A program made the position numbers and the translations under genes. From Pseudomonadota bacterium (lineage in GTDB: Bacteria > Pseudomonadota > Gammaproteobacteria > Steroidobacterales > Steroidobacteraceae), in contig JAKADE010000014.1 of NCBI GenBank assembly GCA_021820785.1, forward strand, positions 1 to 18,535: 18,535 nt of DNA, read 5' to 3'. Numbering within the stretch: position 1 is the stretch's first letter; each line of letters begins with the position of its first letter. This document shows, one piece after another, positions 4,574-16,731 of this stretch. Under the pieces are notes generated by a model that ran no database searches, had not been told where the DNA came from, and worked only from the letters and a program-made list of their open reading frames with translations.

Positions 4574-5239
4574 CTACTTCGGCGGTGACTCACCGCGTTC
4601 GCGGGCGCGCTCTTCCATCTGCCGACGATGCTCGGCGCGAATGTGTTCGCGTTCCTGCGCCGTGCGCGCCGCTCCCATCTGTGCCTGATAGCGCGCAACC
4701 TCCTGGGGCGTCATCATGGCATAGCCGTAGATCTGCTCACGCTCCTGCTGGCGCTGGCGCTCCTGCGCACGGATCTGGGCCTCGCTCGGCGGAGAGCCGA
4801 GATGCTCATGGCGTTCCTCGGCGCGCTGCTGCATCTCGTGCTGCTGCTCCATCCGGTACTGCACACGCTCCTGCTCCGTCGGCAACGAACGCAGATGCTC
4901 TTCGTATTGCGTCTGCTCCGCGCTGGTCATCAGGTTCCCGCCGTAGATACGGTCCCGGTCCTGTTCGCGCTTGAGGTCGCGGTCGTAGAGACGGTCGAAA
5001 GTGCGGTCATGCAACCGATCGCGAGTGCGGTCGAGCGTCCGGTCGTGCAGCCGATCCATGTCGTGGGTCGCCAGCCGGTCCCGATCCTGCAGCCGCGTTC
5101 CGCTGCCGATCCGGCTCTGAGATTGTGCACCTGCGCCACCGCCTCCACCGCCGGCGTTCTGCGCGAATACTGCCGGGGAAGACAACAGCAGCCCCGTCAA
5201 AATTGCCATCGCCACTGTCGATTTCGCTGCGTACATCAT
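4574..5239 (-). CDS. Exported charged-repeat protein with two IYG-MTxxE modules
   Basis: This 221-residue protein is of a type seen as hypothetical in proteobacteria. It has a Sec signal peptide (residues 1-27, ending VFAQ), a glycine-rich linker (30-38), and an Asp-Arg tetrapeptide repeat region (62-97). Two related modules follow: IYGGNLMTSAEQTQYEEHL at about 98-116 and IYGYAMMTPQEVARYQAQM at about 170-188. Each continues into a Gln/Glu/Arg-rich helix. A periplasmic, elongated, mostly helical protein is expected and no catalytic residue is evident. AGGAG at 5243-5247 precedes two consecutive ATG codons (5239 and 5236) and spacing allows either. The barrel gene starts 11 bases after its TAG stop. 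The function is not known to me. Confidence 0.8.
   Translation of the reverse strand: MMYAAKSTVAMAILTGLLLSSPAVFAQNAGGGGGGAGAQSQSRIGSGTRLQDRDRLATHDMDRLHDRTLDRTRDRLHDRTFDRLYDRDLKREQDRDRIYGGNLMTSAEQTQYEEHLRSLPTEQERVQYRMEQQHEMQQRAEERHEHLGSPPSEAQIRAQERQRQQEREQIYGYAMMTPQEVARYQAQMGAARTAQEREHIRAEHRRQMEERARERGESPPK
4967..5056 (-). repeat. In-gene 12-base periodic repeat encoding Asp-Arg-x-x tetrapeptides
   Basis: Residues 62-89 read as seven tetrapeptides in strict register, each starting with Asp-Arg: DRLH, DRTL, DRTR, DRLH, DRTF, DRLY, DRDL. KREQ and DRDR then continue the spacing. Opposite charges are spaced i to i+3/i+4, as in stable single alpha helices. Confidence 0.8.
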
Positions 5240-5373: not shown

Positions 5374-5892
5374 TCACCGCAGGGCGAGCGAGGCCGCCAC
5401 GAAGAACTCGAGATTGAACAGGATGTGCAGACCCATCGGCGCCCCGACGCCCCGGTAGCGCTCGCGGAACCCGCCGAACAGCAGCGACGGCGCGAACACA
5501 CTCAACGCCCACAGCGGCGGATGATGCACGAAGTGCGCCGCCACGAAGAGAGCCGAGGTGATCAGGTTTGCTGCACTGACGCCGCACCAGCGCGCCGCAA
5601 TGGTGCGGCGGCGCAGCAATTCCCCCTGGATCAGTCCCCGAAAGACTCCTTCCTCGAGTGCCGGCTGCCACAGCACGCAGGAGAACCAGACTTCAATCCC
5701 ATGCAACGCGGAGATTGCCATCGCCGCCGGAAACGCAAACCGAAGCCCGATCGCCACGACGAGTCCCACGGCGCTGGCCAGCCACCAGAGCGGGTCGCGC
5801 ACAAATCCGAACGCTGCCCGGATCAGACCCGCGGGCCTGGGCTCAGCCCGCATCTCGCCGAGTGCACCGACCCCAAGCTCAGAGCATCGCAT
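5374..5892 (-). CDS. mrtJ: JDVT-CTERM system glutamic-type intramembrane protease (CPBP/CAAX-like)
   Basis: This 172-residue integral membrane protein has the CPBP/Abi protease signature. Glu80-Glu81-x-x-x-Arg85 lies in PALEEGVFRG, His120 ends the helix FVAAH, and His156 with Asn160 lies in LHILFN. Hydrophobic segments lie at about 35-60, 63-78, 104-121, 127-140 and 152-170. The family cleaves substrates within the membrane, with the first motif glutamate activating water. It is shorter than general CPBP proteins, as expected for the compact sorting-linked branch. The gene starts 12 bases after a gene whose product ends in a GGGC-type sorting signal, and three more such proteins are encoded upstream. 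That context is the main reason for calling MrtJ rather than a generic CPBP protease. The ribosome-binding site is weak, and Met14 is an alternative start that keeps all motifs. The family name is from memory and unconfirmed by a model search. Confidence 0.8.
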   Translation of the reverse strand: MRCSELGVGALGEMRAEPRPAGLIRAAFGFVRDPLWWLASAVGLVVAIGLRFAFPAAMAISALHGIEVWFSCVLWQPALEEGVFRGLIQGELLRRRTIAARWCGVSAANLITSALFVAAHFVHHPPLWALSVFAPSLLFGGFRERYRGVGAPMGLHILFNLEFFVAASLALR

Positions 5893-5904
5893 TGCACCGG
5901 TCTC

Positions 5905-6027
5905 TTACGGAATCCTGCCGCGCGTTCGCAGGAGTCTTCTCCCCAACAGCAGCGCGGCGAATCCCGCCAGTCCCAGCAGCAGCGGGTCGAACCCCGCATC
6001 GGGCACACTCACGCACCCCCCGCCACC
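5905..6027 (-). other. JDVT-CTERM-type sorting signal of the beta-helix protein next to mrtJ
   Basis: Residues 819-858: GGGGCVSVPDAGFDP, then a helix of about 14 hydrophobic residues, then a basic tail (RRLLRTR). The invariant Cys is residue 823, at bases 6013-6015. Confidence 0.8.
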
Positions 6028-8481
6028 ACTCGACACGACCGGTGCCGCAGCACTGATGCTCTTCACCGACACCGCCGTCTGGGTCGAATTATCCACGAGA
6101 TTCACGTCTTCCTGCGGCGCTTCGACATCGAAGCTGGCCGTGCCATCGCCGGTCGTCGCGGCGGTCACCTGCACCAAGCCGCTGAGTGACGCACCCGAGG
6201 CGAGCGAGTCCAGCGTGCACAGAATCGTCGCCGGCGTATCGGTGCCGTCAAAATTGCAGCTCGCCCCCGGCAAGTCGATCGAATCGTACAGAACGTTGGG
6301 CGGCAGCGTGACGCCAAAGCGGACCTGCTGCGCATCCGTCGGACCGAAGTTGCGGATGAGGAACGGGAGATACATCGCAGTACCCCGTGCCGCGCTGACC
6401 GAAGGGTTTCCGGGCGTGACCGTCAGATCGGACTGCCCGAGCTCCGAGATCCTGGCATCCGCCGAATTGTTGACCAGATTCGGATCAATCGGCGCCGTCT
6501 GGGTGACGGAGAATTCGATCGGCGCCTCAGCGTTCGGTGCGCCGGACTGCAGATTCAACGTCATGGTGGCAGAGGCCCCCGGGGCCAGGGTACCGGCCGG
6601 GCAACTGACCACCGCACCGGTCTCTACACAAGATGCGCTGCCCGCAGGCGTCGCAATCGTTGCAGACTGCAGCACCAGCGACGACGGCAGAGCAGAGGTG
6701 ACGATCTGCACCCCCGTCGCGGCGGTCGTCGCGGTCGGATCCACGTGAGCCGTTGCTGTCACGGAAAACTCTCGACCGACGTACACGCTGTCCGGTGCCG
6801 ACACGTTGTCGATGTGCAGATCGGCCGTATGCACGAACAGCTCATACGCACCGACGTCGCACTGGAACACCCCGTCGATATTCCCATCGGCGCGGCCCAT
6901 CTGCCCGCGCTGATCCTCGTTCGGACACTGGGTGGAATCTCCGGCATCGATCGCCGGACTGCCGCTCTGCAGCGCCATGGTCGGCGTCGGGCCTCCATTT
7001 TCTTCCAGCGGACCGAGTTGCGCATTGACGCTCGATTGATCGCCTGCCGCACCAAGTCCGCAGCTGGTGCCGTCCTCGATATTGTGTCCCATCGAATAGA
7101 ACCGCGCCGCCGGATCGCCCTCCCCCTTGCCTCCACAATTGAGCAATGTCGGAGTCGTACCGGCATAGGTGTTCGCCGCCACAATGGTATTGGTCAGACT
7201 GAAATTTGCCGCATTGGCGCCGCCGCTGGCGGGCAGCGCGCTGGCCGGGCCGAACCCGCTGAGCCCGACACCCGCCTTGCCGACTTTTCCCGTGACCGTA
7301 TTGTCGGCGACCGTATCGTTGATCAGATTGACGCGACCGTTCGTCATGATGCCCGCCCCCCCGTCGGTGGCGGTATTGGCTGCGATCGTTGAGCGGGTAA
7401 TGACTTCGAGCACCATCCGACGGCCCGCAATACCGCCGCCGCTCGAGGCGCTGTTGCCGACGAACGCACTGCGTTCGATTTCCGACGTATGGAATCCGGT
7501 TTCGAACAGTCCACCGCCATCGGCCGCACTGTTCGGGGCTGCCGTCGAGCCAATCTCACTGTCGGTCATCCGCATGACCGCATCGTTGTAGATACCCCCG
7601 CCGTTAGCGGCACTCGTATTTCCCGTCACCGTCACGTGATCCAGCGTCAGGGGACCCGTATTGTAAATACCGCCGCCCTCTCCACCTGCCGCATTGTTCA
7701 TGACCTGAACATCGGACAGGGTCACCATCTGAATGGTCGCGCCGGACTCGCTCTCGCCAGGTCCCCCATGACCTTCCGGACCTGCGCACCCCTTGCTGCT
7801 GCCGCCGCCTCCGCCACCGCACCCACCCTCATCCTCTTCACCCTCGGTCGCGGTGGAATCGATGACCTGGATTTCCGCCCCGGCCCCGATCGCGATGCCT
7901 CCGCCCATGCGCGCAAAGCGGATCACCGCCGTCGGCACCGACGCATCGAGAATCACGGGCGTCGGAACATAGCCGTTCTCCACCGTCATTCCCTGCAGGT
8001 TCACCGTCATATTGCTTTGTGCACCGGCGGGTATCTCGATGTGGAAGATGCGATCCTGGTTCGCCCCCGGCGCCCATCCGATCACCGTCTGTCCCGCGCC
8101 GGCCCCGATAATCGTCATGCTCTGCGTAATATTCAGGTCCCCTTTCGAGGCGTCCGGAGTGTGCACGACCGTAAAGCTGCCATTCACCTGTTCAGCCGCC
8201 TCGTCAACCCCCGTCACGGTCAGCTGATAATTTCCGGCCGGGACCATGATCGTGCTCGCGGTCGTCGCCGCATCCGCAACCTGAATCGCGGCTCTGAGCG
8301 TGCATTGCCCCTGTCCGTCATCGCATTGACCGACCGCAATCGCCGCAGCGGACGCCGGCGCATCGAGGGTGGTATTGACCTGAAGCGTTCCAGCATGGGC
8401 GCTCAATACTGCGCACATGATCCCCGCAGGCACGCAAACGCGTACCGCCCCGGAGAATGTTCGATATAAGCGGTTGCTCAT
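5905..8481 (-). CDS. Beta-helix surface protein with CSLREA-like, choice-of-anchor-Q-like and JDVT-CTERM regions
   Basis: This is an 858-residue exported protein. The start at 8481 is preferred over upstream in-frame codons for three reasons: its ATG overlaps the subtilase stop as ATGA, GGAG lies seven bases upstream, and a signal peptide (residues 1-31, ending SAHAG) follows at once. In order come a CSLREA-like motif (CTLRAAI, 60-66) and right-handed beta-helix turns (about 110-450) with repeated GGGIYN/GNTS-type rungs. Next are a choice-of-anchor-Q-like block (495-548, GSPAIDAGDSTQCPNEDQRG to CDVGAYEL), two DUF11-like beta domains (about 550-680 and 685-808), a short linker, and the sorting signal with Cys823. 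A Gly/Glu/Ser-rich insert with two extra cysteines interrupts the helix at 212-247. It is probably a surface or outer-envelope structural or adhesive protein; no catalytic motif is seen. The mrtJ gene follows after 12 bases. Confidence 0.85.
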   Translation of the reverse strand: MSNRLYRTFSGAVRVCVPAGIMCAVLSAHAGTLQVNTTLDAPASAAAIAVGQCDDGQGQCTLRAAIQVADAATTASTIMVPAGNYQLTVTGVDEAAEQVNGSFTVVHTPDASKGDLNITQSMTIIGAGAGQTVIGWAPGANQDRIFHIEIPAGAQSNMTVNLQGMTVENGYVPTPVILDASVPTAVIRFARMGGGIAIGAGAEIQVIDSTATEGEEDEGGCGGGGGGSSKGCAGPEGHGGPGESESGATIQMVTLSDVQVMNNAAGGEGGGIYNTGPLTLDHVTVTGNTSAANGGGIYNDAVMRMTDSEIGSTAAPNSAADGGGLFETGFHTSEIERSAFVGNSASSGGGIAGRRMVLEVITRSTIAANTATDGGAGIMTNGRVNLINDTVADNTVTGKVGKAGVGLSGFGPASALPASGGANAANFSLTNTIVAANTYAGTTPTLLNCGGKGEGDPAARFYSMGHNIEDGTSCGLGAAGDQSSVNAQLGPLEENGGPTPTMALQSGSPAIDAGDSTQCPNEDQRGQMGRADGNIDGVFQCDVGAYELFVHTADLHIDNVSAPDSVYVGREFSVTATAHVDPTATTAATGVQIVTSALPSSLVLQSATIATPAGSASCVETGAVVSCPAGTLAPGASATMTLNLQSGAPNAEAPIEFSVTQTAPIDPNLVNNSADARISELGQSDLTVTPGNPSVSAARGTAMYLPFLIRNFGPTDAQQVRFGVTLPPNVLYDSIDLPGASCNFDGTDTPATILCTLDSLASGASLSGLVQVTAATTGDGTASFDVEAPQEDVNLVDNSTQTAVSVKSISAAAPVVSSGGGGCVSVPDAGFDPLLLGLAGFAALLLGRRLLRTRGRIP
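7741..7848 (-). other. Low-complexity Gly/Glu/Ser insert in the beta-helix (first protein)
   Basis: Residues 212-247 are almost entirely Gly, Glu, Ser and Pro, with Cys221 and Cys232. They lie just before the QMVTLSDVQVMNN rung. The two other beta-helix proteins carry a different acidic Gly-rich insert at the same place. Confidence 0.7.
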
Positions 8482-8633
8482 GACTGTTCTCCGTGACGCG
8501 CGCCAGGACACCCCTGCTTCGCGCGTCGCATCGATCGTGCGCCGCGCGCACATGATCCGAATACGCCGACCCCGAAGAGAACCCACAATGTGGGATCGAA
8601 CGACCGTCCGGGTTCGAAGACGCAGCCGCCGCC
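8478..8633 (-). other. JDVT-CTERM-type sorting signal of the subtilase
   Basis: Residues 735-785: GGGCVFEPGRSFDPTL, a helix of about 12-14 residues ending in SCARGARSMRR, then 14 further hydrophilic residues. The invariant Cys is residue 738, at bases 8622-8624. Confidence 0.75.
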
Positions 8634-10835
8634 GGACGAGGACGTCGAGGTCGTCGACGTCGGAGTCGGAGCCGACGCCGCCTGCAAAATCGGCACCGAC
8701 ACTTCCGTGGACGGCGCGCTCTCCTGCCCCTTGGTGTCCAACGTGCGGACCACGTAGTAGTACGTTCCAGAGGCGAGTCCTGTGTCGGTATACGTCGTGC
8801 TCTGGTACGACACCGTCGCAATCTTCGCCAGATCGCTGCTCGCGGAACTGGCCCGGTAGACATCGTAACCATCGACATCCAGTGCGGAATTCGCGGGCCA
8901 GGCCAGATTCGCCGAACTGCCGCTCGCGGTAGCCTCCAGGCTCGTCGGGGCCGCGGGTGGTGCCACCGGCAGCGCATCGAAGGACGCCTTGACGTCGAGC
9001 TTGCCGTAACCCCAGGAAGCATTGGGCACCGTTCCGACCGCATCGTCAGACGTCGCATAATGCTCGAGGTAACCCTTGATCTCGTCTGGCGTCACGCTCG
9101 GCGCCAGCTGCAGCAGCAGCGCGACTGCACCGGAGACGATGGGTGCGGCCATGCTCGTGCCTTGTCGAAAACTGTGCACGCCATCGAGATCCAGATAGCA
9201 CTCTCCACAGGAGTCTGCAGGCCACACGGTCTGCGCAGAAAATGCCGCCGCGATCCAGGCCCCGGGGGCAGTCACTTCGGGCTTTTCAACGGAAGGGCAC
9301 TCGATCGCGAGGCTACATGCCCGGCGCGGACCGACGCTGCTGAAGTAAGACAGCGCCCCGAGCGGATTCGACGTAATCGCAGACATGGGCCCTGCGAGAC
9401 TCTCCCACGTGTTTCGCGTGTTGTACGCTCCCACAGCAATCGGAGCCGTCGCGGTCGCCAGATCACTCAACGTATCGCTAGCGTCGAGATTACTTGTAAA
9501 GCGGGCACCACTCGTCGAACCATTAACCCATGCATCGAATCTTCCGCTCGTGATCGATGTTCCGCTCAAATCGATCTGCCATCCCGTGGATGAAAACGGC
9601 GCATCGGATGTCGCAGAGAGACTGATCAGAATTTCACGATCCCCGTTGAGCGGATTGACGTTGCTCGATACGACGGTGACTCTCCCCGCGCAAGAAAGTG
9701 TCTCGGCCGAAGGATCTGAAACCGGTGCCGCCAGGATGCCGGAATCACACACGCTGCCATTTCGCACCTCGACTGCAAGCCGATCGGCTCCGGCATACCA
9801 GATGTCAAACAGTGTGAGGTCGGTTGCCACTGGAACCGATGCACTCAGCGAAACCAACCCTCCCGGCGCGAGGGTTCCGCTGGCATGCGAATCGTCATCC
9901 GCATGATTCCCCGCAGCAATGACGATGATGCGCCCGGGTCCTGAAGCGTTGTCGAGCGCGCGATCGGCGTTGTCCGTGCCGTCATGCGGCCCGATTTCCG
10001 TTCCCACGCTGAGGTTGATCACGAGCGGACGCCCAAGCACACTGGCCGCGTTCTCCAGGTAATTGATCGCCTCAATGATATTCGCCGTATTCCACTCGCC
10101 CTTTGCCACGAGCAGTTCCGCCTGCGGTGCCATGCCGACGTACCGATATGCCGGCTGACCATTACCGGTCGCCGACCCATTGCCCGCCGCGATCCCGGCT
10201 ACTTCCGTGCCATGCCCCACCGTATCAACTTCCCCGCACTCCCCCGCATCGATTTGTGCACCGGTACATTGGGTGCCCGTGGTGTAATCCATGAGCTGCA
10301 GGATCCGGGTTCGTCCCTCTGGATCCCGAAAATCCCGGTGCGTCAGGTCGATGCCGGTATCCACCAGACCGATCAAGACATTTCGACCCGTATCGCCCTG
10401 CCAGTCCGGTGGTGTCCCGCTGCGGACCTGGTCGGCACCAGTCGCAACCACTGCGAGATCGACCGCCGGTTGCAGCGGAACCGCCACGTCGACGTAGCGG
10501 ACATTTGCCAATTGCGCGAGATTTGCGAGCTCGCCAACCGGAACACGCACACCGGCGACGTCACCGGACGTCCACCTCACCGAGCCCCCGAGCTGCGAAA
10601 CGTCCGGCATCGCGCCACGGAACCGCACGAGCGTCGACGCCATCGGCGGCTGCGTCCCGGTGGCCGGGCGGATCATGCCCTTAGCAGAAAAGACGCCCAA
10701 CCCTGCCGGACGGCTCTGTTGCTCCACCAGCACCGCGGCCAACGGTGCGAGTCGGGCCGTCTGCGCAACGGCTGCCAGGGGTCCGAGCCCCGCACAGAGA
10801 ACAAGAATTCGCCACCGGTTACCCCAGATGCTCAT
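8478..10835 (-). CDS. S8 family serine protease (subtilase) with fibronectin-III and JDVT-CTERM regions
   Basis: This 785-residue exported protease begins with a signal peptide (1-24, ending AAVA). A propeptide-like region follows (about 60-122, with TSGDVAG and NVRYVDVAVPL). The subtilisin catalytic domain (about 150-622) has Asp159 in LVDTGID, His208 in GHGTEVAGIAAG, the oxyanion Asn310 in AAGN and Ser561 in GTSMAAP. A PA-like or jelly-roll insert lies between Asn310 and the Ser. A fibronectin type III domain spans about 627-716, followed by a Ser/Thr/Pro linker and the sorting signal with Cys738. All catalytic residues are present. The gene begins in a 4-base ATGA overlap with the propeptide-like gene and ends in another with the next beta-helix gene. 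It probably acts at the cell surface or periplasm, perhaps on its co-encoded neighbours. The tail after the last helix is unusually long. Confidence 0.93.
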   Translation of the reverse strand: MSIWGNRWRILVLCAGLGPLAAVAQTARLAPLAAVLVEQQSRPAGLGVFSAKGMIRPATGTQPPMASTLVRFRGAMPDVSQLGGSVRWTSGDVAGVRVPVGELANLAQLANVRYVDVAVPLQPAVDLAVVATGADQVRSGTPPDWQGDTGRNVLIGLVDTGIDLTHRDFRDPEGRTRILQLMDYTTGTQCTGAQIDAGECGEVDTVGHGTEVAGIAAGNGSATGNGQPAYRYVGMAPQAELLVAKGEWNTANIIEAINYLENAASVLGRPLVINLSVGTEIGPHDGTDNADRALDNASGPGRIIVIAAGNHADDDSHASGTLAPGGLVSLSASVPVATDLTLFDIWYAGADRLAVEVRNGSVCDSGILAAPVSDPSAETLSCAGRVTVVSSNVNPLNGDREILISLSATSDAPFSSTGWQIDLSGTSITSGRFDAWVNGSTSGARFTSNLDASDTLSDLATATAPIAVGAYNTRNTWESLAGPMSAITSNPLGALSYFSSVGPRRACSLAIECPSVEKPEVTAPGAWIAAAFSAQTVWPADSCGECYLDLDGVHSFRQGTSMAAPIVSGAVALLLQLAPSVTPDEIKGYLEHYATSDDAVGTVPNASWGYGKLDVKASFDALPVAPPAAPTSLEATASGSSANLAWPANSALDVDGYDVYRASSASSDLAKIATVSYQSTTYTDTGLASGTYYYVVRTLDTKGQESAPSTEVSVPILQAASAPTPTSTTSTSSSGGGCVFEPGRSFDPTLWVLFGVGVFGSCARGARSMRRAKQGCPGARHGEQS

Positions 10836-11254
10836 GGGGGACTCCCGTGTGGCAAAGACAGCGGCAGCGACAGCTCCACATACCGCACAAATTCGAATCT
10901 CGAAATTCGTACCAGAGCCGCATAGCCCAGATAACCGGTAACGACGTCGCCAGATGTACTGATGACGTCCACGCCGGCCTCCTCCAGCGCATCCCGCTCA
11001 TGCACACCGATCGCATGGCGCGTGCGGACCAGAACGGCGGTCAATTGACCGGAATTCCTCCGTGCCCATGCGCGCACACCGGCCGACCATTTGAACCGCT
11101 CCGACGCCACTTCTCGCGCGGCACCTGCGCTGGTCACCTGGCGGTCGGCACACCCACCCGCCCCGATGACGATGAACACGGCACCGATCGCCACGATGCC
11201 GAAACAACCCCTACCGGGAGCCGGACCGAGCCTGCGTAGCGTCATGGGCTTCAT
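10832..11254 (-). CDS. Small exported protein resembling the subtilase propeptide (candidate inhibitor/chaperone)
   Basis: This is a 140-residue protein. A basic start and a hydrophobic stretch (18-32) lead to Cys35 in IGAGGC, a poor but possible lipobox, so it is either a lipoprotein or membrane-tethered. The C-terminal half (about 70-133) matches the propeptide-like region of the adjoining subtilase by eye. Shared landmarks in the same order are LVRTR/LVRFR, TSGDV, VRYVELSLPL/VRYVDVAVPL. This is the usual inhibitor-I9-like pattern, a small alpha/beta domain that folds subtilases and blocks their active site. Its stop overlaps the subtilase start as ATGA, so the two are translationally coupled. 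GGAG lies nine bases before the ATG at 11254; an in-frame ATG three codons later lacks a ribosome-binding site. A dedicated inhibitor or folding partner is an inference. Confidence 0.72.
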   Translation of the reverse strand: MKPMTLRRLGPAPGRGCFGIVAIGAVFIVIGAGGCADRQVTSAGAAREVASERFKWSAGVRAWARRNSGQLTAVLVRTRHAIGVHERDALEEAGVDVISTSGDVVTGYLGYAALVRISRFEFVRYVELSLPLSLPHGSPP

Positions 11255-11284
11255 GGGTGTCTACTCCGACTCATCGCCGATGCC

Positions 11285-11319
11285 GCGCGGGAGCGGCGTC
11301 CCTCGTGCCGCCCCCGCGC
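11285..11319 (-). terminator. Imperfect GC-rich hairpin between the interrupted beta-helix gene and the propeptide-like gene
   Basis: A 7-base perfect outer stem (11285-11291 against 11313-11319) continues inward through two single-base bulges into five more pairs (one G-T). It sits within the 81-base gap after a TGA at 11336-11338. No T-run follows on the - strand. It could be a terminator or an attenuator before the four-gene operon. Confidence 0.4.
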
Positions 11320-11335
11320 CAGCCTCCGCTCCCTG

Positions 11336-11473
11336 TCACACGTTACGGCTCTGCTCGCCCTTGACGGTCCGGCGCCACCGTCGCACACCGAGGCCGGCCA
11401 TGCCGATCCCCAGCACCACCAGCAGGGTGGGATCAAACGGACCGCCCGGCTGGAACACGCATCCGCCGCCGCC
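11336..11473 (-). other. JDVT-CTERM-type sorting signal of the interrupted gene (beyond the amber codon)
   Basis: GGGGCVFQPGGPFDPTL is followed by a hydrophobic helix and the basic GVRRWRR. The Cys codon is at 11459-11461. The signal is intact but reached only if the TAG at 11840-11842 is read through. Confidence 0.78.
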
Positions 11474-11485
11474 GCTTGAAGTCGA

Positions 11486-11530
11486 CGTCGTGGGCGTGGT
11501 GGGTGTGGTGGGGGTGGTCGGCGTAGTGGG
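11486..11530 (-). repeat. Five 9-base repeats encoding Pro-Thr-Thr
   Basis: Five imperfect copies of a 9-base unit (CCN ACN ACN on the - strand) encode five Pro-Thr-Thr triplets just before the sorting signal. The intact paralogue has a shorter, irregular TTPAVPTTPAV linker here, so copy number varies between paralogues. Confidence 0.85.
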
Positions 11531-11839
11531 CTCCGCCGCAATATTCAGCGGCACCACCGTGGAGTCGTTAGTATTGTCGGTATCCACGTCGTCCGTCGTA
11601 ACCTGAAACTCCACGTCCGCAGTACCCGCAGAGGTGGCAAGGAGGTTCAGGCTTCCGGTGACACTCTGACCTGCCGCGATCGTGCCGCAATCACACACCG
11701 CACTCAACTGATCCGGCAGAAGCGTGCACGTTCCCCCGGACGCAACCTGCATCTTCTGGTAACTCATACGATTCCGGAAAATCGCCAGAACGCGCACATT
11801 GGTAGCCGCATCCGGACCTGAATTGGAGACGGTGAAATT

Positions 11840-11842
11840 CTA
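11840..11842 (-). other. In-frame amber stop codon (TAG)
   Basis: Flanking residues GQAG-stop-NFTVSNSG align without a gap to GPAALNFSVSNAG in the paralogue, so only the Leu position differs. One base change from TTG to TAG would explain it. Two other genes here (3771-4562 and 4574-5239) end in TAG, so TAG acts as a normal stop in this genome. Confidence 0.9.
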
Positions 11843-13186
11843 TCCCGCCTGTCCCTGCGCCTTCGGCTGCTGACCCGGTCCGGTCGCCGCGACGCCCACA
11901 TTGCTCGTTCCCTGCACCAGCATCGTCACGGTTGCCGTATTGTTATCCGGGGATATGTCCGTAGGACTCGCCGCCGTAATCGACGCCGTGATCGCGACAA
12001 TTCCGGGCGCTGTCCCGGTACCATTGATATCCAGGGACACCCCCTGACCCTGGGCCAAGGTTCCGACGTCACAGGTGATCACCCGCGTATTGGTATCGAA
12101 CGCGCAGTCCGAAGTGCCTGCCGCCGTCGTCATCGTTGCACTCGTGACGGAATAATTCTGCGGAATCGGCTGCGTCGTGATCACGACACCCGTGGCATCC
12201 GTCGCCGTCGTCGAATTATTCATGAACGCAAAGGACGCCTTCGCTCCCGAACCATGCGGAAACTTGTCCGGGCCACCCTTACCGCTGACGTGCAGATCGG
12301 CACGCGGAACGAACAGCTCGAACGCTCCGATATCGCAGATCTCCGTATTCTTGAGGCTGCCGTCCGCCGGGCGCATGCTGCCGCGCTGGTCCGTGTTCGG
12401 ACAATTGGCATTGTCACCCGCGTCAACCGCCGGAGAACCAGTCAGCAGCCCACGGGTTTCGGTCGGCCCGCCATTCGCGGCCAGCGCCTGAAGCTGCGCA
12501 CTCGTGTTGGCCATGTCTCCAGCGCCCGTCAAGAAGCAGGTCGCATCATCTGCCAAATTATGCCCGAGCGAGCTCATCACCCCTGTTTTGCAGCTTGAAC
12601 CGCTGCACCCGCAGTTCGACGGCGTGCTCGAGCCAGTCGCGATGTTGCCTTGCATGAGCGTATTGACGAACTGATAACCTCCGCTACCGAACGCATTCAG
12701 TCCCGCGCCACCGCTGGTAGAGTCATTCGCGGCAGTATTATCCGCGATCGTATCGTTCTGCAGGGAAACCTGGCCGTTCGTAGTTATTCCGCCGCCGACA
12801 TCAGTCGCCGAATTTCCATTGATCGTCGTGTTCACGATGTCCATGACGACCAGCGATCGCGCCGAGATTCCCCCGCCGCCAACTGCGGTATTTCCGTTGA
12901 TTGCGCTCTCCTCGATGACCGTGTTGTGCATGCCGGTATCGAAGATTCCGCCGCCACCTTCCGCCGTATTCGGCGTCGCCAGAGCAGTCGTAGTGCCGAC
13001 CGTGGAATTCATCATAGTCAGCTGCGCATCGTTGTAAATTCCACCACCATTCGTCACGGCAGAATTTCCACTGACCACAACGTTATCCATCGTTAACGGC
13101 GCCGCGTTGGATATACCGCCTCCTGCGGCACCACTCGTGTTGTTGAGGATCTTGACGTCGGTTAACGTGACCCCGGTAATGGTTGC

Positions 13187-13255
13187 CGCTGACTCCCCTT
13201 CGTCGCCACCTCCGGACTCGCCACCGCCTTCGTCACCGCTACTCCCTCCAGAGGC
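13187..13255 (-). other. Low-complexity Gly/Glu/Asp/Ser insert in the beta-helix (interrupted protein)
   Basis: Residues 217-239 consist almost only of Gly, Ser, Glu and Asp, with GDEGGGES and GGGDEGES blocks. They lie between the conserved AVTYINPAA strand and the ATITGVTLTDV rung. Confidence 0.7.
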
Positions 13256-13903
13256 CGCCGGATTGATGTAGGTCACCGCCGCTGCAGGACCAATGGCGAT
13301 CCCAGCTCCGCTGCGTTCGAACTGATAGTAGGTTCCGTCGCTCAGTGTCTGCAGAATCTCCGCCGGCGGTGTTACGCCATTTTCAATCGTTACACCACTG
13401 ATATTGACCGCGATATTGCTCGAAACCGCCTCGATGTGAAACACCCGATCCCCGTCGGCTGGCGTCTGCTTTACCGTCGGCGACCATTCAATTACCGTGT
13501 TCCCTGATCCGGCACCGACAATGTCCATACTGGAGGTGATGTTCAGATCTCCGATGCTTGCATCGTGCGTACCAACCACCTGATAACCGTCGGTTGCATT
13601 GCCTTCGACCGTCTCGTCCGCTCCGGGAATCGTCAAAATGATCGGATTGTTCGGATCACTGATCTGGCTCAGGTCGATGACGTTTGTGCCACCGAGTGCG
13701 TTCGCCTGCATGATTGCCGCGCGGAGCGTGCACAGACCCGCCGCATCCGCACAGATTCCATCGCCCAGATCAGCATCCGGCGCGTCTGCCGTACTGTTGA
13801 CGGTGAATGTCGCCGCGGACACCGGCCATGCCGCCGCCAGCAGAACCGACGCCAGCCCGACCAGGACTGCGGCCCTGGAGGACTTGATCTTCAAAACGTT
13901 CAT

Positions 13904-14148
13904 GAGAGCCACTCCCCTGACCAGACGGCACACGCCGCCGTTACGCCGATGACTGTCCAACAGAATGCACGCTGCCGCCATGTGCAGATATCCGTACGCA
14001 TTCACCCAGGGATTCCCGAAATGCCTCCAGCGGAACGCTGCACGCGCCCCGACGTAGCGCACCCAGAGGTGCCCCACGTTCAGGTCCCGAAGAACTGCTT
14101 ATAAGCACGGCCCGTCGCACCGTCCCAGGCGGCCCGACACAGAGACTG
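13904..14148 (-). promoter_or_regulatory. Intergenic region upstream of the interrupted beta-helix gene
   Basis: This 245-base gap separates the two tandem paralogues. No convincing gene is visible: an in-frame extension upstream of 13903 exists but lacks a signal peptide and a ribosome-binding site. A partly conserved block (TCCAACAGAATGCAC, 13956-13970) resembles TCCAAGGAATGCAC upstream of the other paralogue (16742-16755), and nearby GCTGC and ATG-GCAG pieces also match. The leader region was therefore probably duplicated with the gene. I found no clear -35/-10 pair. Confidence 0.3.
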
Positions 14149-14286
14149 TCAGCGCTCCTGCGCCCGTTTCCTTCGCGGTGCACGGCGAAAGCGACGCACA
14201 CCGATGCCGGCCATTCCGACAGCCAAAGCTGCAATCAAGGTGGGATCGAAAGGAGCATCGGGTGAAAACACACACCCGCCGCCACC
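14149..14286 (-). other. JDVT-CTERM-type sorting signal of the intact upstream beta-helix protein
   Basis: GGGGCVFSPDAPFDPTL is followed by a hydrophobic helix and a strongly basic tail (GVRRFRRAPRRKR). The Cys codon is at 14272-14274. Confidence 0.8.
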
Positions 14287-16731
14287 GCTCGAAATCGATA
14301 CCGCCGGCGTCGTCGGGACCGCTGGAGTCGTCGACTCCGCCGCAATATTCACCGGCACGACGATCGAATTGTTCGTATCATCCAGGTCGACATCATCGGA
14401 CTCGACCTGGAATTCCACGTCCGCCGTCCCTGCAGACGTCGCCAGCAAATCGAGCGTGCCGGTCACGCTCTGGCCCGCTGCAACCGTTCCGCAGTCACAG
14501 ACTGCGCTCAGCTGGTCCGCCAGCAAAGTGCAGGTGCCGCCGGAGGCGATCTGCATCTTCTGGTAACTCATCCGATTACGGAAAATCGCTAGAACCCGCA
14601 CATTGTTCGCCGCGTCCGGGCCGGCATTTGACACTGAGAAATTGAGCGCCGCTGGCCCTTGAGCCCTCGGTTGCTGCCCAGGCCCCGTGGCCGTCACACC
14701 CACGTTGCTGGTGCTCTGGATCAGCATCGTCACCGTCGCCGTATTGTTATCCGGCGATATCTCAGTCGGGCTTGCTGCGGAAATTGTCGCGGTAATCGTT
14801 ACTTCGCCAGGCGCATCCCCAGTGCCACTGATGTCGAACCGAACGCTCTGTCCGTGCGCCAGGGTTCCGACATTGCACGTAATCACTCGGGTATTCGTAT
14901 CAAATGCGCAATCCGTTGTTCCCCCGGACGTCGTCATCGTTGCGCTGGTGATCGAATAATTCTGCGGTATGGGCTGAGTCGTGATGACGACGCCTGTCGC
15001 CTCCGAAGCCGTCGTGGAGTCGTTCGTGAAGCCGAACGACGCATTCGCCGCCGCACCGTGGGGCGTTCTGTCCGGTCCGCCTTTGCTGCTGACGTGCAAA
15101 TCGGCCCGGGGAATGAACAGCTCGAATGCGCCGATATCGCAAACCTCCGTATTCCTGAGACTTCCGTCCGCGGGACGCATGCTGCCGCGCTGGTCTGTAT
15201 TTGGACAGTTCGCATTGTCCCCCGCATCGACCGCCGGTGAACTGCTCAGCAGGGCACGCGTCTGCGTCGGCCCGCCATTGCTCGCCAGAGCCTGCAGCTG
15301 CGCATTGGTATCGGCGAGGTCGCCGGCTCCGCTCAATGAACACGTCGCATCGTCGGCCAGATTGTGGCCTAGGGAATTCATTACCCCGGTATTGCAGCTT
15401 GCGCCACTGCAGCCACAGTTCGCCGGGGCCCCCGAGCCGACCGCCGAGTTACCTTGAAAGAGGGTATTGACGAAGCTGTAGCTGCCTTTGCCAAATGCGT
15501 TGATCCCGGCCCCGCTACCGGTAGAATCATTCGCAGACGAATTGTCCGCGATCGTATCGTTCTGCAGCGTGACGCTGCCGTTGCTTGTCATTCCACCACC
15601 GACGTCAGCGGCCGCATTTCCATCGATCGTGGTGTTCACGATGTCCATGCTCACCATCGACCGAACAGACAGTCCCCCGCCGCCGGTTGCCTTGTTGCCG
15701 TCGATCGCGCTACCTTCGATTACCGTGCTGTGCATGCCGGTATCGAAGATACCTCCGCCGCCCTCTGCGGAATTCGGCGTCGTGAGCACGCCCGTCGTTC
15801 CGATCGTGGAGTTCACGACCGTCAGCTGCGCATCGTTGTAAATGCCGCCGCCGTTGGTCACTGCAGAGTTTCCGCTGATGTCGACGTTCGTCAGTGTCAG
15901 CGGCGCAGCGTTCGATAAGCCGCCGCCCGCAGCTCCGCTCTGATTATTGAGTAGTTTCACGTCGGTCAACGTCACCCCGGTGATGGTCGCGGAGGATTCC
16001 TCACCTTCATCACCCCCGTGCTGTCCACCTCCGCCCTCGTCTCCCGGGCTGCCGCCCGAGTCACTGCCGTGACCTGTGGGCGCACTGGGATTCACGTAAG
16101 TCACCGTGGCGGCCGGTCCAATCGCGATTCCCGCGCCACTTCGCTCCAGCTGGTAATACGTTCCGTCCTGTAACGTCTGTATGATCTCTGCAGGCGGCGT
16201 CACACCATTCTCGATCGACACCCCGGAGATATTCACCGTGATGTTGCTGGAGACAGCCTCGATGTGAAAGACGCGGTCGCCGTCTGCCGGATTCTGCTTC
16301 ACGTTCGGCGACCATTCGATGACGGTCTTGTCCGCGCCTGCCCCAATGATGTCCATGCTGGACGTGATGTTCAGGTCGCCTCGGCTCGCATCATGAGCAT
16401 CCACAACCTGATAACCGGTGCCGGGATTACCTTCGACGGTCTCGTCGACACCCGGGATCGCCAGGATGATCGGGCTGCTGGGATCCGCGATCTGGCTGAG
16501 GTCGATGACGTTCGTGCCTCCGAGAGCATTCGCCTGCATGATCGCCGCTCGCAATGTGCACAATCCCGTGGCATCCGCACAGATTCCGTCTCCAAGGTCT
16601 GCATCCGGTGCATCCACGGTGCTATTGACGGTAAATGTGGCCGCCGCCGCGGGTAACGCAGCCGCGAGTGCCAGAATGAGCACTGCAGCAAGACCGGCAC
16701 CGGCGTTCAAATACATCTTCAGCGCGTTCAT
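14149..16731 (-). CDS. Intact beta-helix surface protein with CSLREA-like, choice-of-anchor-Q-like and JDVT-CTERM regions
   Basis: This is an 860-residue exported protein. The chosen ATG (16731) begins a clear signal peptide (1-31, ending AAAA). A 57-residue upstream extension of the frame has no signal-peptide character and crosses the intergenic region. In order come a CSLREA-like motif (CTLRAAI, 58-64) and beta-helix rungs (about 115-430) with GGGIYND and GNSAVTNGGG-type turns. Next are a paired-cysteine segment (NCGCSGASC, 438-446), a choice-of-anchor-Q-like block (484-538, ending CDIGAFEL), two DUF11-like domains (about 541-672 and 674-797), a Thr/Pro linker, and the sorting signal with Cys820. 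It is highly similar to the interrupted neighbour along its full length, so the pair is a tandem duplication. It is probably envelope- or surface-attached and structural or adhesive; no enzymatic residue set is visible. The ribosome-binding site is weak (GGAA). Confidence 0.87.
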   Translation of the reverse strand: MNALKMYLNAGAGLAAVLILALAAALPAAAATFTVNSTVDAPDADLGDGICADATGLCTLRAAIMQANALGGTNVIDLSQIADPSSPIILAIPGVDETVEGNPGTGYQVVDAHDASRGDLNITSSMDIIGAGADKTVIEWSPNVKQNPADGDRVFHIEAVSSNITVNISGVSIENGVTPPAEIIQTLQDGTYYQLERSGAGIAIGPAATVTYVNPSAPTGHGSDSGGSPGDEGGGGQHGGDEGEESSATITGVTLTDVKLLNNQSGAAGGGLSNAAPLTLTNVDISGNSAVTNGGGIYNDAQLTVVNSTIGTTGVLTTPNSAEGGGGIFDTGMHSTVIEGSAIDGNKATGGGGLSVRSMVSMDIVNTTIDGNAAADVGGGMTSNGSVTLQNDTIADNSSANDSTGSGAGINAFGKGSYSFVNTLFQGNSAVGSGAPANCGCSGASCNTGVMNSLGHNLADDATCSLSGAGDLADTNAQLQALASNGGPTQTRALLSSSPAVDAGDNANCPNTDQRGSMRPADGSLRNTEVCDIGAFELFIPRADLHVSSKGGPDRTPHGAAANASFGFTNDSTTASEATGVVITTQPIPQNYSITSATMTTSGGTTDCAFDTNTRVITCNVGTLAHGQSVRFDISGTGDAPGEVTITATISAASPTEISPDNNTATVTMLIQSTSNVGVTATGPGQQPRAQGPAALNFSVSNAGPDAANNVRVLAIFRNRMSYQKMQIASGGTCTLLADQLSAVCDCGTVAAGQSVTGTLDLLATSAGTADVEFQVESDDVDLDDTNNSIVVPVNIAAESTTPAVPTTPAVSISSGGGGCVFSPDAPFDPTLIAALAVGMAGIGVRRFRRAPRRKRAQER
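15991..16083 (-). other. Low-complexity Gly/Asp/Glu/Ser insert in the beta-helix (intact upstream protein)
   Basis: Residues 217-247 include SDSGGSPGDEGGGG and GGDEGEESS. They occupy the same position as the inserts of the two other beta-helix proteins but differ in length. Confidence 0.7.

Follow-up and report, generated by a model that had tools for sequence, protein, structure and literature searches.

A probable MrtJ/JDVT-CTERM protein-sorting locus with four clustered tail-bearing genes on contig JAKADE010000014.1

The window analyzed here, positions 1 to 18,535 of contig JAKADE010000014.1, quite probably contains a dedicated MrtJ/JDVT-CTERM protein-sorting locus, in which a small intramembrane protease (MrtJ) is encoded beside four genes for proteins with Cys-centred C-terminal tails, and from which the targets would follow a route of lipidation, cleavage and surface export. 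Within this analysis the basis for that reading is that the enzyme and three tails fall into their curated families, together with the conserved motif and fold of the enzyme, the co-occurrence of the two families, the adjacency of the genes, and the finding that a second genome preserves the complete cluster. Both families, and the link between them, are known already (Haft 2024, as described in PMC11980579), and by its sequence the window locus appears to be a well-stocked new example of this known system. Genomes, loci and proteins compared are designated below by G-, L- and P-numbers.

The 172-residue open reading frame (ORF) at 5374-5892 on the minus strand scores 113.2 bits against the MrtJ model NF033192 (cut-off 75) and 60.3 bits against the next-best model, excluding another CPBP clade and bearing out the MrtJ-type assignment of an earlier, sequence-only reading of this DNA; the MrtX model NF040593 gives 26 bits, with a cut-off of 180. 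The EExxxR and paired-His motifs pointed out in that reading are indeed present, as E80-E81-G-V-F-R85, H120 and H156-x-x-x-N160 (HxxxN), and E80, E81, R85, H120, H156 and N160 are invariant in an alignment of 46 sequences. The predicted structure is Rce1/SpdC-like, with an Rce1-like domain and fold; the MrtJ profile found no match among PDB sequences at E<=0.1, and Foldseek alone gave none at E<=0.001 for either predicted model, that of MrtJ or that of the small lipoprotein described below. We considered whether a general CPBP protein had been mistaken for MrtJ and rejected this, as NF033192 matches over the cut-off occur in 8 of 147 genomes of the order to which G001, the second genome, belongs, and in none of 14 control genomes. 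Weak matches at E<=0.001 are found in 60 of the 147 and 11 of the 14, and the genome counts of MrtJ given here are of matches above the curated cut-off only.

The locus is transcribed from the minus strand in the order target 4, target 3, small lipoprotein gene, S8 subtilase (target 2), target 1, mrtJ. Its features are as follows, from mrtJ upstream.

5374 to 5892, minus strand: MrtJ, a glutamic-type (CPBP) intramembrane protease; 172-residue ORF with its start at 5892 and an alternative ATG at 5853.
5905 to 8481, minus strand: target 1, a choice-of-anchor Q/DUF11 protein with a JDVT-CTERM tail; ATG at 8481, 858 residues, NF041518 73.4 bits.
5935 to 6030, minus strand: JDVT-CTERM tail of target 1; NF033191 28.2 bits, residues 853-884 of the 893-residue ORF.
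8478 to 10835, minus strand: target 2, an S8 subtilase with a JDVT-like tail; 785 residues, PF00082 123.6 bits.
8556 to 8639, minus strand: JDVT-like tail of target 2; NF033191 21.6 bits (below cut-off), residues 733-760.
10832 to 11254, minus strand: small putative lipoprotein resembling a subtilase propeptide, a possible inhibitor or chaperone in trans.
11336 to 13903, minus strand: target 3, a CSLREA/choice-of-anchor Q protein with a JDVT-CTERM tail, broken by an in-frame stop; NF041518 76.8 and TIGR04214 30.1 bits (first part).
11378 to 11476, minus strand: JDVT-CTERM tail of target 3, located past the stop; NF033191 35.9 bits, residues 108-140 of the 153-residue fragment.
11840 to 11842, minus strand: in-frame amber codon (TAG) of target 3, from reading-frame analysis.
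14149 to 16731, minus strand: target 4, a CSLREA/choice-of-anchor Q/DUF11 protein with a JDVT-CTERM tail; 860 residues, NF041518 80 and TIGR04214 27.7 bits.
14185 to 14289, minus strand: JDVT-CTERM tail of target 4; NF033191 33.0 bits, residues 872-906 of the 917-residue ORF.

ATGA overlaps are found at both the lipoprotein/subtilase and the subtilase/target 1 junctions, and 12 bp separate target 1 from mrtJ, so the last four genes (lipoprotein, subtilase, target 1 and mrtJ) appear to form a single unit coupled in translation; 81 bp lie between target 3 and the lipoprotein gene.

All four of the matching Cys tails described previously are present, at positions taken from the NF033191 match ranges. 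Those of target 1, the target 3 fragment and target 4 exceed the JDVT-CTERM cut-off of 27 bits and belong to the family, whereas the subtilase tail, at 21.6 bits, does not. A tail profile of our own, made from relatives of targets 1, 3 and 4 together with six other tails and containing no subtilase tail of this lineage, scores the subtilase tails at 33.5 bits in the window and 43.7 bits in the related locus L001, and we take the window tail as JDVT-like rather than as a certified JDVT-CTERM member. The three tails above the cut-off are more than chance resemblances: NF033191 has no match at E<=0.001 in the 14 control genomes; at E<=0.05 it matches in one of them, below the cut-off. Hydrophobic N-termini of the targets were seen by eye in the translations.

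The gene order of the window is repeated in L001 (JAKAZL010000026.1, from the metagenome-assembled genome (MAG) 'Proteobacteria bacterium ZJ1.bin34', here G001), where MrtJ is 65% identical to that of the window and the subtilase and target 1 are each 69% identical; an APH/AAA protein and a charged secreted protein are neighbours common to both. MrtJ and JDVT tails share a genome in each case, the mrtJ gene being in the window itself. G001 has four JDVT matches at E<=0.001, each inside L001 and each exceeding the cut-off when the open frames of the genome were searched (56 of 56 candidates scored), and the four tail-bearing frames have no internal stop. The earlier description of the window locus as self-contained finds its support here, although that support covers G001 alone. 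One protein search had a short reach, the L001 homologue concerned (31-36% identical) being known from DNA alone.

Across genomes, the tails track the protease. Among 147 genomes from the order to which G001 belongs, 8 have MrtJ over its cut-off, 9 have JDVT-CTERM and 7 have both (Fisher p 1e-9), and in 398 genomes drawn from its phylum the figures are 29, 29 and 21, with 2.1 expected to have both (Fisher p 3e-22); G001 belongs to both sets, the p values take no account of kinship, completeness of the genomes is not given, and the JDVT count in the phylum set comes from scoring at most 18 candidates per genome. Of the 21 phylum-set genomes having both, 13 carry MrtJ with a JDVT match no more than 10 kb away on one contig (counted by eye). 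It had been suggested from the sequence that many GGGC-tail proteins in genomes without the protease would speak against the pairing; the 21 genomes with both favor the pairing, but 8 of the 29 JDVT genomes in the phylum set, and 2 of the 9 in the order set, do lack a MrtJ over the cut-off.

These unpaired genomes and the limits on the counts weigh against the reading of the locus as a dedicated sorting system with a lipidation and export route, and so do several further points. MrtJ occurs without JDVT over the cut-off in 8 of 29 genomes of the phylum set and 1 of 8 of the order set, and a renewed JDVT search of those nine found no match even at E<=0.05. Cys lipidation is itself a prediction in PMC11980579. 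Of 13 genomes with MrtJ and/or JDVT, 11 have a GspD above its cut-off (G045 and G055 have sub-cut-off or fragmentary matches only), which is compatible with a type II secretion system (T2SS) route but not specific, and says little because the count covers only genomes with one or both of the two families. The claim that one MrtJ cuts all four targets is the weaker part of the reading, since target 3 is interrupted by an amber codon and the subtilase tail stays under the cut-off both in the window and, by whole-protein scan, in L001. In that scan the four L001 proteins score 29.9, 29.2, 25.1 (target 1 orthologue) and 23.0 bits (subtilase), two of them below 27, and the open-frame genome search rates the same tails several bits higher, so that being over the cut-off there is a laxer statement. 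A claim that the L001 subtilase orthologue passes the JDVT cut-off was withdrawn, as it is true only in the genome search (30.2 bits).

Of the ten JDVT genomes without a MrtJ over the cut-off, seven have sub-cut-off CPBP matches at E<=0.001 and three have none. One of the ten holds a MrtJ match split into pieces of 52.6 and 27.3 bits, one of which contains a TAG (G302:C32:110713-111007). Some 1.3 kb away lies its JDVT match, within a 3682-residue open frame, and the pair is either decayed or misassembled. A CPBP protein of about 205 residues, scoring 36-40 bits against the MrtJ model, was seen in G019, G033 and G045; G019 and G045 have JDVT matches and no MrtJ over the cut-off, while G033 has both.

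We considered the possibility that MrtJ is a CPBP protein with some other role, such as a scaffold or regulator, linked to the tails by position while these stay as uncut transmembrane anchors. This seems very unlikely, as the residues of the Rce1-type motif do not vary, the two families co-occur much more often than chance would give, and the role of MrtX, a close relative of MrtJ, as a tail protease has experimental support (PMC11980579). In Myxococcus xanthus it is MrtX that brings about the cleavage of MYXO-CTERM, and cleavage needs the conserved Cys and also happens in E. coli when MrtX is present; that study proposes that the Cys is lipidated before cleavage, by an acyltransferase that it leaves unidentified, and that transport is by the T2SS (PMC11980579). 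MrtX is there called closely related to MrtJ, and it is by this family relationship that we carry cleavage, Cys lipidation and the T2SS route over to the window. In the proposed scheme, the secreted targets (three choice-of-anchor Q proteins, one of them interrupted, and one subtilase) would cross the inner membrane via Sec and be retained in it by the C-terminal helix. The invariant tail Cys would then be lipidated by a separate enzyme, MrtJ would cut beside the lipidated Cys within the membrane, and type II secretion would probably bring the lipid-anchored protein out to the surface of the cell. In the periplasm, the small lipoprotein would probably hold the subtilase in check, or aid its folding.

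To put the cluster in context, 41 MrtJ loci were compared (the window, L001-L004, L048-L052, L054, L055, L089, L090 and L094-L120). Linked tail-ending targets are present in 20 of these, with four each in the window and L001, two each in L049 and L089, and one each in 16 loci, a count that leaves out ORFs under 60 residues and internal tails and in which several stretches stop at contig ends; the other 21 loci, some at contig ends, have no linked tail-ending target. The tail of G380 is in a 37-residue open frame at a contig end. Genomes with four or five JDVT matches, besides G001, are G310 with five and G190, G202, G396 and G416 with four each, and the matches are on separate contigs in all but G396 and G001. 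Three of those in G396 lie within 13.5 kb, one of them internal, and its first MrtJ locus counts two tail-ending targets. The internal match (48.9 bits) is in a 924-residue open frame, L089:9581-12355, where inspection by eye places a hydrophobic stretch and then a part resembling thioredoxin after it; MXAN_5598 similarly carries an internal MYXO-CTERM, which has been called a possible gene fusion (PMC11980579).

The predominance of single targets (16 of the 20 loci having any) might suggest that MrtJ processes only target 1, directly upstream at 12 bp, and that the other three tails are plain membrane anchors or the business of another protease. The neighborhood described in PMC11980579 is likewise MrtJ with a single target, found sporadically in beta- and gamma-proteobacteria, and the subtilase tail is under the cut-off in both the window and L001. 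Targets 1, 3 and 4 are homologous (through shared L001 matches), therefore tandem duplication is a likely origin for the cluster. The tails of targets 3 and 4 are, however, stronger than that of target 1, all four tails have been kept in the diverged G001 locus, and elsewhere a single MrtJ shares its genome with JDVT matches located on additional contigs (for example, G310 has five matches and G190 four). We thus regard processing of target 1 alone as unlikely, and the reading in which MrtJ serves the clustered tails as preferable.

Secreted-type proteases recur among the MrtJ-linked targets. Eighteen proteins from other loci (17 tail-bearing, one lipoprotein) and one more were scanned, and S8 proteases were found in L001 and L115, and C10 (streptopain-type) proteases with an I69 propeptide directly upstream of MrtJ in three loci (L002:8430-9851, L003:167-1600 and L004:501-1946); other contigs of G150 hold two further JDVT-tailed protease-like proteins, an S8 in L092 and an M12B-like one in L093. 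L002-L004 are from MAGs named Nitratifractor and Campylobacteraceae, that is, Campylobacterota. Their MrtJ proteins score 106.8, 106.2 and 102.8 bits against NF033192 and the tails of the adjacent targets 34.4, 33.9 and 22.9 bits, the last below 27. These pairs fall outside the range of beta- and gamma-proteobacteria named in the account of the system in PMC11980579, and we found no description of them, or of a four-target cluster, in our searches of open-licence PubMed Central papers.

Targets 1, 3 and 4 of the window match the NCBIfam choice-of-anchor Q model, targets 3 and 4 also match CSLREA, and DUF11 is above its Pfam gathering score in targets 1 and 4. Target 3 runs for 687 codons from MNVLK (13903) to the TAG at 11842-11840, beyond which the same frame stays open through a DUF11/tail part (11839-11336) ending in the best-scoring tail of the four. 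A frameshift was considered and rejected, as 11839-11336 continues in the frame of the TAG. The amber codon may be real, a sequencing error or read through. The earlier claim of four neighboring targets thus holds for four tail-bearing genes but not for four intact ORFs, the tail of target 3 lying behind the stop, and the working substrates in this genome number three, or four at most, because of that interruption.

The in-frame stop, together with the sub-cut-off subtilase tail, could also indicate a decaying locus in which anchoring is being lost in this lineage. We give this the least credence of the alternatives, as the frame of target 3 stays open past the stop and still ends in a 35.9-bit tail, the other genes are open, and there is no stop within the four G001 frames.

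The nearest target 3 relative among the matches listed, P0055, shares 94% identity with the 745-residue query across 92% of its length, and is an intact protein of 858 residues with a JDVT-type C-terminal tail. Among the best 120 of 2736 target 3 homologues, 77 fit a loose regular expression for the Cys-type tail, a pattern that also accepts a GCGC-type tail (P0119). The relatives P0055-P0124 carry Cys-type JDVT, Gly-rich Cys-free and GCGC-type (P0119) tails on one passenger family, suggesting, on the strength of these sequences, that anchors may have been exchanged during evolution.

The S8 subtilase is a clear family member (PF00082 123.6 bits, cut-off 21.8), with DTG at 159, GHGT at 207 and GTSMA at 559. 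Overlapping its start is the small lipoprotein gene (10832-11254), which the earlier reading did not include. In the product a hydrophobic stretch precedes a conserved Cys, and the sequence finds a match in the N-terminal region of the neighboring subtilase. It has no Pfam family at E<=0.1 and no NCBIfam family at E<=1. In its predicted model the core runs beta-alpha-beta-beta-alpha-beta and can be aligned with subtilisin propeptides (3whi, 1scj, 1spb, 4i0w), which may point to a propeptide fold. The lipoprotein is perhaps an inhibitor or chaperone of the subtilase in trans. Tentatively, and with less than even expectation, we propose a surface-protease module with a safety catch, in which MrtJ would deliver the JDVT-anchored subtilase to the outside. 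Before its export, a separately encoded lipoprotein of the outer membrane, originating from a duplicated subtilase propeptide, would act on it in the periplasm as inhibitor or chaperone. If true, two overlapping genes would pair two lipid-anchoring routes, C-terminal via MrtJ for the protease and N-terminal via the classical lipoprotein path for its inhibitor. We found no description of a propeptide-like lipoprotein beside an anchored subtilase in our searches of open-licence PubMed Central papers.

Also near mrtJ, at 4574-5239 on the minus strand, is a gene for a highly charged protein, probably secreted, in which Asp-Arg-rich motifs recur; it lies beside MrtJ in L001 too (70% identical) and matches no family above its cut-off in the NCBIfam and Pfam scans.

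A compact locus in which one 172-residue protease has several candidate substrates of natural origin would lend itself well to studying tail specificity and the question of the Cys-modifying enzyme, and one candidate substrate is itself a protease, so its activity should be measurable. The four-substrate cluster and the possible built-in inhibitor of one substrate are unusual within the known system. That system, as presented in the passages of PMC11980579 that deal with it, is a bioinformatic prediction, with bench work unmentioned. The window shares with it the curated protease and tail families and a target gene directly upstream of mrtJ, and differs in having four clustered tails, one of them on a subtilase, and a propeptide-like lipoprotein gene. 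That lipoprotein has a predicted core that may share its fold with the subtilisin propeptides, and its sequence resembles the subtilase N-terminal region, but it is encoded by a separate gene, has a conserved Cys past a hydrophobic stretch, and matches no curated model. Rhombosortase and GlyGly-CTERM resemble the window system in their tripartite C-terminal signal; target 1 has a weak match to rhombotarget A (TIGR04212, 16.7 bits for a cut-off of 295), and some target 3 relatives also bear Gly-rich, Cys-free tails. Rhombosortase, however, is a rhomboid serine protease (PMC11980579), whereas the window combines Cys tails with a CPBP protease. The myxosortase MrtX and MYXO-CTERM are alike in the CPBP protease and in a tail made up of an invariant Cys, a helix and an end rich in Arg, with cleavage experimental for MrtX only, but a myxobacterial genome typically encodes dozens of MYXO-CTERM proteins (PMC11980579).

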